Made by a program: the position numbers and the translations under genes
Notes under the pieces: generated by a model
Database searches by the model: none
What the model saw: the letters and a program-made list of their open reading frames with translations, nothing else
Told to the model about the DNA's origin: nothing
In this document: positions 29,692 to 32,944 of the stretch, piece by piece
Layout: each line of letters starts with the position of its first letter
How positions within the stretch are numbered: position 1 is the stretch's first letter
NCBI GenBank assembly: GCA_902620455.1
Contig: CACNIG010000007.1
Span: forward strand, 1 to 64,000
From: an uncultured Bacteroidota bacterium
Lineage (GTDB): Bacteria; Bacteroidota; Bacteroidia; Flavobacteriales; Flavobacteriaceae
Length of the DNA: 64,000 nucleotides
Direction: 5' to 3'

Positions 29692-31089
29692 ATGTATAAT
29701 GAAGGAACTATAATTGCTCTATCCTCCCCTCCTGGTTCTGGTGCAATTTCTATTATCCGATTATCAGGAAAAGATTCTATATCCAAAACTGATAAATTTT
29801 TTAAATCTAAATCTGGAAAGAAATTAAAGGATTGTAACGGTTACTCTATAAGCTATGGGAATTTTTTGGCAGGTGAAGAAGTTCTTGATGAAGTATTAAT
29901 ATCACTATATAAAGGACCTCACTCATATACTGGGGAAGATGTTGTCGAGATATCTTGTCACGGTTCAAATTATATACAACAAGAGATTATCTCATCGTTT
30001 ACAAGTTCAGGAGTTAGATTAGCATCTCCAGGTGAATTTACACTAAGGGCATACCTAAATAACAAAAAAGATCTATCTCAGGCAGAAGCAGTAAGTGATT
30101 TGATTGCCTCTGAGTCAAAAGAAGCTCATAGAGTAGCAATGCATCAGATGAGAGGTGGTTATTCTAATGAGATTGAAGAATTAAGAGAGAAATTGATTGA
30201 TTTTAAGTCATTAATTGAATTAGAACTTGATTTCTCGGAGGAAGATGTTGAATTTGCAGATAGAAAAGACTTAAAAGATCTTTTAAATACCCTTGAGAGC
30301 AAGTTATCCGGTCTAATTGAATCATTTACTTATGGAAATGTTATTAAAGAAGGTGTTGCAGTCACAATTGCTGGTAAGCCTAATGCCGGAAAGTCTTCAC
30401 TTCTAAATGCATTAGTAAATGAAGATAAAGCTATAGTATCAGATATTCCAGGAACTACAAGGGATGCTATAGAAGATGTAACAGTTATTAATGGAATAAA
30501 GTTCAGATTTATTGATACTGCAGGCATAAGAGAGACATCAGATAAGATAGAATCTATTGGTGTTGAAAGAGCAAAAGGAAAAATTGGTAAATCTAGGGTA
30601 CTTATATACCTGTTTGATAGGTCAGATATTAGTGAAAATGAGTTAATAAATGAGGTGGAAAGCTATCAAAGAGATGATTTAAATATTTTTATAGTTGAAA
30701 ATAAAATTGATTTATTAAATAATTTAAAAACAGATAGTTACAAAGACAATATAAATCAATTAATTAAGTCAAAAAATATAAAATTTCTTCAAATTTCAGC
30801 TCTAAATCAAACAAATATTGAAGATCTTAGGAATGCTATTACAGAAGATCTGAATCTATCTTCTGAAAATAGTATCGTAATTACTAATTCAAGACACCTT
30901 GAAGCATTAAAAAACTCTCTTAATGCTATCGAGTCTGTAAAAAAAGGACTAAAAGATGGTGTTTCTGGAGATTTACTGAGTATAGATCTAAATGATGCTA
31001 TTATTAATATTTCTATAATTACTGGTAAAATAGATATTGATCATGACATATTAGGTTCAATATTCTCAAAGTTCTGTATCGGCAAATAA
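29692..31089 (+). CDS. mnmE: tRNA modification GTPase MnmE, disrupted neighbourhood at its 3' end
   Basis: With MnmG it installs cmnm5 on U34 of tRNAs. The 465 residues comprise an N-terminal tetrahydrofolate-binding domain (IIALSSPPGSGAISIIRLSG), helical domain, G domain (AGKPNAGKSSLLNAL, DIPGTTRDAIED, DTAGIRETSD, ENKIDL) and the conserved C-terminal FCIGK with the catalytic Cys. The last 18 bases (31072-31089) are repeated at 32927-32944, marking a probable island insertion that preserved the reading frame end. Confidence 0.98.
   Translation: MYNEGTIIALSSPPGSGAISIIRLSGKDSISKTDKFFKSKSGKKLKDCNGYSISYGNFLAGEEVLDEVLISLYKGPHSYTGEDVVEISCHGSNYIQQEIISSFTSSGVRLASPGEFTLRAYLNNKKDLSQAEAVSDLIASESKEAHRVAMHQMRGGYSNEIEELREKLIDFKSLIELELDFSEEDVEFADRKDLKDLLNTLESKLSGLIESFTYGNVIKEGVAVTIAGKPNAGKSSLLNALVNEDKAIVSDIPGTTRDAIEDVTVINGIKFRFIDTAGIRETSDKIESIGVERAKGKIGKSRVLIYLFDRSDISENELINEVESYQRDDLNIFIVENKIDLLNNLKTDSYKDNINQLIKSKNIKFLQISALNQTNIEDLRNAITEDLNLSSENSIVITNSRHLEALKNSLNAIESVKKGLKDGVSGDLLSIDLNDAIINISIITGKIDIDHDILGSIFSKFCIGK
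31072..31089 (+). repeat. attL: 18-base 3' end of mnmE
   Basis: TTCTGTATCGGCAAATAA encodes FCIGK and stop. It matches 32927-32944 in 15 of 18 positions, same orientation. The mnmE/trmE 3' end is, from established work on SGI1-type islands, an integrase attachment site. I call this the left junction of the element. Confidence 0.75.
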
Positions 31090-31322
31090 TTCTGACTTAT
31101 AAATATTACTCAATCCTTTATATATATTACTAAACAGTAGTATTTTCAATACTTTACAATTATTGTTTATTTATAAGGAATTATAAGGTTTTAGACATTT
31201 GTAGTAGCGTATAGTAGCGCGTTCGTGTAGCGCGTAGTAGCGTTTAGATAAAAAAGATGTTTTTCCAATACAATACATTATCATATTGCCATTTAGAATA
31301 TATTTTTTATAAATTGTAATAC
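31090..31322. other. 233-base left-end region of the element
   Basis: No gene seen on either strand. It holds an AT-rich stretch, a short tandem ATTATAAGG-like pair near 31172-31189, then the TAGTAGCG repeat block at 31202-31242 and an AT-rich leader before the nuclease ATG at 31323. It may contain integrase arm sites and the cargo promoter. Confidence 0.5.
31202..31242 (+). repeat. TAGTAGCG repeat cluster, left
   Basis: Three exact TAGTAGCG copies (31202-31209, 31212-31219, 31235-31242) and a variant GTGTAGCG (31225-31232) within 41 bases, much richer in GC than the surroundings. A related pair lies near the other end of the element at 32851-32868. The arrangement resembles arm-type recombinase binding sites; that reading is inference. 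Confidence 0.7.
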
Positions 31323-32288
31323 ATGGAACTCTTTAATTTTAAGAATAATAATATAAAAGAAGTAAAAGTTAAACCTTTTAAACTTGAAAAGGAGATACAA
31401 TCACTTATTGAAAAAAATACTGAAACCTTCTTTGACCTTGAATTTATTGCTACCGAGCTGACAATAGGTAATTATAGAGTTGACACACTTTGTTACGATA
31501 AAGAAAATAATTCATTTACAATTATAGAGTATAAAAAAGGTAAAAGCTACTCTGTTATTGACCAAGGATATACTTATCTACAACTTATGCTTAACAATAA
31601 GTCAGATTTTGTGCTATCACTTTCTAAACATTTAAATAAAGTAATTGATGTTAATTATATTGATTGGAGTCAATCAAAAATAATTTTCATATCACAATCT
31701 TTTAATTCCTATCAAAAAGACAGCGTGAATTTTAAAGATTTACCTTTTGAATTATATGAGATAAAGAGATTTGAAAATGATATTATATCATTAAATCTAC
31801 ATGAGTCTTCATCGAATGTTAGTATAGATTCTCTTTCAAGTTCAAATGGAAAGGGAGTGATTAAATCAATAACAAAAGAAGTCAAGGTCTTTGATGAAGA
31901 TGAAGTACTCTCAAAACTTAATGATGAAATAATACAAAAATATACAGAATTAAAAGAAAGTTTATTTTCTGAACTTGATGACTTAAAATTAATTGTAAAA
32001 GCTGGATATGTATCATTTTCTGTTGGTGGAAGAAAAGGTGTTGCATATTTAAATGTGCAGAAAAATGGATTTAAAATGCACATAAGAAGAGGACACATAA
32101 TGAATGACGGAACCAAATCAAAAGGATATTTCACAATAGATGATCCAAAAAAAATATCTAAAACAAAATCATGGACCTGGAAATCTGGTGCAAAAGGAGT
32201 GGTTTATGAGATTAGACTTGATAAAAATTTTGATATTGATTACATCAAATTCCTGATCAAGCAGAAATACAATAGTATTATAAATTAG
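31323..32288 (+). CDS. DUF91/NucS-like nuclease domain with C-terminal DUF5655
   Basis: 321 residues. Residues about 20-130 look like a PD-(D/E)xK nuclease of the DUF91/NucS type: D54 (in YRVDTL), E69-Y70-K71 (IIEYKKG) and Q81 (DQGYTYL) fit the D-ExK-Q pattern. Residues about 205-320 resemble DUF5655 (YVSFSVGGRKGVAYLNV, KGYFTIDDP, YEIRLD). No signal peptide; cytosolic. Likely a DNA-acting enzyme. It is the first gene of the element inserted at mnmE, and islands often carry defence genes, but no methyltransferase or helicase partner is adjacent. Function unproven. Confidence 0.75.
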   Translation: MELFNFKNNNIKEVKVKPFKLEKEIQSLIEKNTETFFDLEFIATELTIGNYRVDTLCYDKENNSFTIIEYKKGKSYSVIDQGYTYLQLMLNNKSDFVLSLSKHLNKVIDVNYIDWSQSKIIFISQSFNSYQKDSVNFKDLPFELYEIKRFENDIISLNLHESSSNVSIDSLSSSNGKGVIKSITKEVKVFDEDEVLSKLNDEIIQKYTELKESLFSELDDLKLIVKAGYVSFSVGGRKGVAYLNVQKNGFKMHIRRGHIMNDGTKSKGYFTIDDPKKISKTKSWTWKSGAKGVVYEIRLDKNFDIDYIKFLIKQKYNSIIN

Positions 32289-32292
32289 AGAT

Positions 32293-32802
32293 ATGAAAAA
32301 GCTACTATTACTTTCTTTATTGGTTTTATTTGGATGTAGTAAAGATGATAATAAAGGAAAACTATTTGAAAGATTAGAGGATAAGGTTTTTATACCCGAA
32401 AATTCTTCATTAGAAAATGCAAATCAAATCACTGAATTCGCAGAATACTTTCCAAATATGCCTGAGTCAAGAAATGCTCTTATCCAAAAATTTATATTTG
32501 AAGGTTTTACTGGACCTAAGTGTTTTGTAACCCCTGGATTTAACGCTCTTGATGCAAGTTATGAAATTGAAGTTCACAGCTCAGATTATATGAGAATGAG
32601 AATTAATGATGATGGTTCAATTTCAGTTGCTATTCTTGGAGAAAATCCACTGCGAGTTTCAGTTAAAGTTGAGGAAAACTTTGAAAGTAGTTATTTAAGT
32701 AGAACTGGAATGCCTAACCCAAATCAAACATTTAAAGAGATAAGTAGAGATGATGTTAGAACAATAACTGAAAGATGGGGTTGTTTACAATACTATTTTT
32801 AA
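32293..32802 (+). CDS. lipoprotein of unknown function, element cargo
   Basis: 169 residues with a clear lipoprotein signal (MKKLLLLSLLVLFGC, Cys15) followed by SKDDNKGK. I recognise no domain. The mature part has three Cys (in GPKCFVTPG, WGCLQYYF and the lipid Cys) and a VEVHSSDYMRM-like beta-rich middle (EIEVHSSDYMRMRI). It starts 4 bases after the nuclease-like gene and so is probably co-transcribed with it. A link between an envelope lipoprotein and a cytosolic nuclease is unusual. Confidence 0.7.
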   Translation: MKKLLLLSLLVLFGCSKDDNKGKLFERLEDKVFIPENSSLENANQITEFAEYFPNMPESRNALIQKFIFEGFTGPKCFVTPGFNALDASYEIEVHSSDYMRMRINDDGSISVAILGENPLRVSVKVEENFESSYLSRTGMPNPNQTFKEISRDDVRTITERWGCLQYYF

Positions 32803-32850
32803 AAAAGTTTAAATTATTTTCAACGAAAGAGGTTCCTTTATACTAACTTA

Positions 32851-32868
32851 TAGTCGCGTATAGTAGCG
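32851..32868 (+). repeat. TAGTAGCG-type repeat pair, right
   Basis: TAGTCGCGTATAGTAGCG matches 31202-31219 (TAGTAGCGTATAGTAGCG) in 17 of 18 positions, in direct orientation, 1649 bases away. It lies 58 bases inside the right att copy. Confidence 0.75.
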
Positions 32869-32883
32869 GAGTATCTATGATAG

Positions 32884-32906
32884 CTTGTTAAGTCAATGAT
32901 AACAAG
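32884..32906. promoter_or_regulatory. perfect 7-9-7 inverted repeat near attR
   Basis: CTTGTTA and TAACAAG flank a 9-base spacer just inside the right junction. This could be a recombinase or excisionase binding site, or an operator. No sequence-level proof of either. Confidence 0.4.
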
Positions 32907-32926
32907 GGTTTACAAAAAGAAAGATA

Positions 32927-32944
32927 TTCTGTATTGGGAAATAG
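32927..32944 (+). repeat. attR: second copy of the mnmE 3' end
   Basis: TTCTGTATTGGGAAATAG, read in the mnmE register, again gives FCIGK and stop. There is no mnmE similarity upstream of it, so this is a duplicated attachment core and not a duplicated gene. Confidence 0.75.

Follow-up and report, generated by a model that had tools for sequence, protein, structure and literature searches.

The 64-kb stretch of DNA analysed here (the window) carries a 1.87-kb element at 31072-32944 that sits behind mnmE and is bounded by 18-bp direct repeats of the 3' end of that gene. The attachment core consists of the last 18 bp of mnmE, six codons reading FCIGK-stop, and on the + strand of the window, apart from the two att copies, nothing comes nearer than 5 mismatches to this 18-mer. 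The features of the locus are as follows, the arm-type assignments being putative.

29692-31089, + strand: mnmE (trmE/thdF), tRNA-modification GTPase (Pfam MnmE_helical, E 5.9e-52; TrmE_N, E 9.6e-39)
31072-31089, + strand: left core (attL), TTCTGTATCGGCAAATAA, encoding FCIGK-stop; 18-mer direct repeat with 3 mismatches against 32927-32944
31090-31201, + strand: AT-rich leader from the left core to the left arm sites, 112 bp, G+C 0.20
31202-31209, + strand: left arm-type site 1, TAGTAGCG, exact copy
31212-31219, + strand: left arm-type site 2, TAGTAGCG, exact copy
31225-31232, + strand: left arm-type site 3, variant GTGTAGCG, with spacings (site 2, 13; site 4, 10) shared by the sister genomes G006 and G013
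31235-31242, + strand: left arm-type site 4, TAGTAGCG, exact copy
31260-31275, - strand: inverted second core (core'), TATTGTATTGGAAAAA, the inversion crossover point in G006 and in unit 1 of G013
31323-32288, + strand: cargo gene 1, 321 aa, candidate phage-defence protein (PADLOC PDC-S18, E 5.2e-95)
32293-32802, + strand: cargo gene 2, 169 aa, putative lipoprotein with N-terminus MKKLLLLSLLVLFGCS (lipobox by eye)
32851-32858, + strand: right arm-type site 1, variant TAGTCGCG, preceding right site 2 at a spacing of 10
32861-32868, + strand: right arm-type site 2, TAGTAGCG, exact copy
32883-32913, + strand: conserved right-arm block, GCTTGTTAAGTCAATGATAACAAGGGTTTAC, between the right arm pair and the core, a possible binding site of an accessory or excision factor
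32927-32944, + strand: right core (attR), TTCTGTATTGGGAAATAG, reading FCIGK-stop in the 18-mer comparison with the left core

Because both core copies read FCIGK and a stop codon, the right core at 32927-32944 is probably the displaced original 3' end of mnmE; the core motif seen at the end of mnmE in the window recurs at the end of mnmE in relatives. The element holds two ORFs only, neither of them an integrase, and no mobilisation genes. By eye, the N-terminal part of the 321-aa cargo protein is PD-(D/E)xK nuclease-like, while searches of Pfam, NCBIfam, PHROG and PDB sequences gave no match for it; its gene was not found in the other 24 genomes of the genus examined, and PDC-S18 is named in no paper found by literature search. 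For the 169-aa protein, Pfam, NCBIfam and PADLOC returned nothing and PHROGs a weak signal-peptide match only.

The original prediction held that short direct repeats near both ends of the element could be recombinase binding sites, and its description of them proved accurate: three exact copies and one variant lie at 31202-31242, 113-170 bp inside the left att copy, and the right pair, which reads TAGTCGCGTATAGTAGCG and matches the leading left pair at 17 of 18 positions, lies 59-76 bp from the right core, with every copy on the + strand. The repeats had also been called GC-richer than their neighbourhood, and the G+C content of 31202-31242 is indeed 0.54, whereas the window as a whole has 0.30 and the leader 0.20; 0.27% of 41-bp windows are equally GC-rich. 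Exact copies of TAGTAGCG number four in the window as compared with a mean of 0.18 in dinucleotide shuffles, and none of 100 shuffles reaches four. The four left sites are spaced 10-13-10 bp and the two right sites 10 bp, so that direct repeats flank the core on both sides (P and P' arms), four on the left and two on the right.

Support for the predicted role as recombinase (arm-type) binding sites comes from comparison with sister genomes. Counted from the core, the window has GTAG at +132, +142, +155 and +165, and the same places are occupied in G006 and in units 1 and 2 of G013, with GTCG at some G006 sites and GTAA at some sites of G013 unit 1. The length of the leader is kept among these related left ends (132 bp from the start of the core to the first GTAG) at a leader identity of 65-87%; for the leader of the window against the related left ends the figure is 73-87%. 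From one left end to another the sites differ in sequence: the window has TAGTAGCG, G006 has TAGTAGCG/TAGTCGCG and G013 has TTGTAG. The right pair covaries with these sites, reading TAGTCGCG-TAGTAGCG in the window, CTTGTAGG-TTGTAGCG in G013 and TGTAGA-TGTAGA in G005. A direct pair 10-11 bp apart is found at -78 to -58 from the right core in seven of eight distinct right ends, and the summed score of the right pairs is matched by 0 of 5,000 shuffles, a p-value to be read as somewhat optimistic, the interval and the offsets of 10-11 having been chosen after the pattern was seen by eye. An earlier repeat statistic, run with a G+C filter over the whole 120 bp and at offset 10 alone, gave weak values for most of the elements. 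Helical phasing and distance from the core are conserved in four left ends and in seven of the eight right ends, and sites of a co-evolving protein would be expected to keep their layout in this way while changing in sequence at both ends. The four-site pattern of the window was found in no other of 400 family genomes and on no viral contig.

As to the protein itself, the source genome encodes only two tyrosine recombinases (304 and 301 aa), neither within the element; about two such genes are present in most genomes of the genus, and the two in the source genome are best explained as XerC and XerD. In the single-cell genome AG-912-I19 (G008, CACHVZ010000004.1), a 378-aa tyrosine integrase with Phage_integrase and Phage_int_SAM_5 domains starts directly after left arms that read TGTAGA at +129 and +140, TCTACA at +158 and +168, and TGTAGA at +179; its match to Arm-DNA-bind_5 is weak (E 0.012, below the Pfam cut-off). 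The element of G005 has the same left arms (TGTAGA at +129/+140, TCTACA at +158/+168-169) behind a leader 75% identical to that of G008, and it carries a right pair of the TGTAGA type and a 353-aa cargo protein with no integrase. This pair of genomes illustrates how the same arms can occur in an element with an integrase and in one without. A 41.6-kb mnmE island of another genus (G055) has a 380-aa integrase (Arm-DNA-bind_5, E 8e-8) beside repeats of its own, and its right end carries a similar sequence. Neither 400 family genomes nor viral contigs yielded an integrase with TAGTAGCG arms, and there was no relative of the G008 integrase on viral contigs; because the genomes compared are draft assemblies, the missing integrase could lie in a gap. 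In G007, the C-terminal part of a tyrosine integrase stands at a contig start (L093, G007:C1, 1-350); it is 41% identical to the G008 enzyme over 69 aa, and a stretch of its C-terminus, TNKNMRTFRGAE, is partly repeated near 840-900. An integrase on G006:C35 was set aside, by eye, as likely contamination, because a reductase-like gene, an iron-transport-like operon and a fasciclin-like gene follow it, unlike contigs of the genus.

Alternatively, one could envision a regulator or an RDF/Xis-like excision factor, encoded by a helper element, as the protein that binds the repeats, for example a repressor of a promoter between the left arm and the cargo. The left repeats do immediately precede the cargo gene, and in G008 the integrase ATG, and an autoregulator could act from there; moreover, the right arm holds the further conserved block at 32883-32913 (GCTTGTTAAGTCAATGATAACAAGGGTTTAC), well kept in G006 and both G013 units and partly in G005:C5. 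However, the right pair is not at a cargo promoter, and a motif shared by the two ends, with constant core distances and a spacing of one helical turn around differing cargo, suits a recombination complex better than an operator, so we regard this reading as improbable. Lower still do we rate the proposal that the repeats are iteron-like sites for replication or partition of a transient circular form: their shortness, direct orientation and helical spacing do recall iterons, and PMC7433901 describes replication after excision in SGI1-family elements, but this element is without a replication gene, and some of its repeats stand at one end and some at the other, at fixed core distances, with the right pair kept in nearly all elements whatever the cargo. 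That the repeats are generally dispersed or similar by chance is scarcely credible, for although TAGTAGCG pairs occur sporadically on 20 viral contigs, none of these adjoins an mnmE core, position is strictly conserved in relatives, and the scattered copies that would have told against the original prediction are absent, the pair TAGTAGCGTATAGTAGCG with up to 2 mismatches being found in two places only in the genome (1,244,282 bases, 95.4% complete), the two ends of the element, with 0 matches in the backwards control of this 18-mer search. An RNA element was rejected (no Rfam match, and a fold that is not unusual, z -0.27), as was a phage or plasmid origin, the DNA of the left end being unmatched in plasmid and phage records.

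We thus consider it highly probable that 31072-32944 is a small, non-autonomous integrative cassette at mnmE, integrase-less and of the cis-mobilizable type, with the TAGTAGCG repeats as the arm-type sites of attL and attR and the integrase supplied in trans; the element appears also to be invertible. What can be read directly in the DNA comprises the cores, the layout and conservation of the arms, their covariation at both ends, a sister integrase beside equivalent arms, and inverted sisters. From these we infer that a heterobivalent tyrosine integrase from a related element would act in trans, its N-terminal domain binding the arm sites and its catalytic domain the core. Recombination of attR with the mnmE core (31072-31089) would excise the cassette, and recombination of attR with the inverted core (31260-31275) would flip the cargo.

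The inverted core at 31260-31275 on the - strand was absent from the original description of the repeats. Such a core lies inside the left arms in the window, in G006 and in both units of G013, and a weaker one in G005; at the same position G008 has the start codon of its integrase, with a weaker match to the core. In unit 1 of G013 the segment between the inverted core and the next core is reversed, with the right arm brought up against the left ones; at the far junction stands, in reverse, the leader GTAAAATTATCATTTAGAATTTATTTTAATTAAATTTAAAT that in unit 2 comes after the inverted core. Both junctions of this inversion switch inside the core. For the inversion in G006 the first junction only is available, at a contig end. 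An amplification chimera could give one inverted junction, but G013 has two clean ones at cores, and chimeras can hardly be the source. The simplest account of these inverted states would be recombination between attR and the inverted core that flips the cargo rather than excising it, and the inverted core together with its inverted sister states constitutes the new part of the finding. We put forward with somewhat less than even confidence the broader proposal of a cassette family in which, by virtue of the inverted core, one integrase either excises (attR with the mnmE core) or flips (attR with the inverted core) a defence-type cargo. If true, the orientation of the cargo would be set by the balance between integrase and excision factor, and modules would be swappable between elements with matching arms.

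The end of mnmE is a hot spot in the genus. The genomes G005, G009, G011, G016, G017, G019 and G021 carry a second core at a distance of 0.4 to 3.6 kb downstream of the gene, and G013 has an internal one. The cargo in other genomes includes C5 methyltransferases and a type II restriction enzyme (G008) and an HSDR-type nuclease (G013). An array of cassettes in G009 (L052, G009:C1) has cores at 0, 1586, 3586 and 13509 from the mnmE core; each right end there has a core and an arm pair of its own class, and a DNA methyltransferase and long surface-type proteins are among the cargo. In some other genomes of the family (G038, G055), two cores lie 41 kb apart around a large island. In G038, each mnmE-type core (L126 and L127) is followed at +160 to +210 by four direct repeats some 11 bp long (CTATAACC type), and the DNA beyond both cores is nearly identical; this arrangement suggests tandem islands with a further arm-site sequence. 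A second location was seen in G005 (L008, G005:C5, 2658-3390), where a 715-bp insert separates the convergent genes GNAT and GDSL, which abut in five sister genomes (G000, G010, G013, G015 and G022). The insert carries a reversed right arm and a core-like site at its other end but no left arms; it also holds a 69-aa ORF and remains of a second class of right end. Its make-up suggests a composite left over from right-end modules at a secondary site.

The series of mnmE elements shares one target core and differs in its arms, which makes the arm specificity of the integrases readable by comparison. Small integrase-less defence cassettes may accumulate behind mnmE in streamlined marine flavobacteria, and the inverted core would offer a simple path from integration to inversion of cargo.

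In mechanism, the window element is related to the integrase systems of the CTnDOT/NBU1 and SGI1 types. SGI1 uses the last 18 bp of mnmE (thdF, trmE) as its attB (PMC2297512; PMC8409611), elements of its family form tandem arrays at this site (PMC2297512; PMC8409611), and its integrase falls in the IntCTnDOT subgroup alongside Bacteroidetes integrases (PMC8138268). The window element uses the same attB at the 3' end of mnmE, with cores at 31072 and 32927, but it measures 1.87 kb as opposed to approximately 42 kb and has subterminal TAGTAGCG sites and an internal inverted core; because the SGI1 integrase and mobilisation backbone genes are absent from it, it is not a member of the SGI1 family. 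The arm-type sites of CTnDOT were studied in a 2007 paper, as far as its citation in PMC8138268 tells. Sister integrases share their broad domain make-up (SAM_5 and Arm-DNA-bind_5, the latter weak in G008) with the CTnDOT/NBU1 type, whereas the site sequences differ and the arms described here vary by element around a constant mnmE core. Cis-mobilizable elements (CIMEs) have attL and attR without an integrase gene and accrete in tandem at one attB. The window element likewise has attL and attR flanks and no integrase, and tandem accretion is seen in G009 and G013; it differs from CIMEs in the inverted second core, which would make its cargo segment invertible. The pdif (xrs) modules of Acinetobacter plasmids hold gene cassettes between inverted recombination sites (PMC11705084). 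The window cassette is similarly bounded by recombination sites in inverted orientation but, when classed by type of core, differs from pdif and integron cassettes in that its sites are mnmE-type cores with arm repeats rather than XerC/XerD (dif-type) or attC sites.
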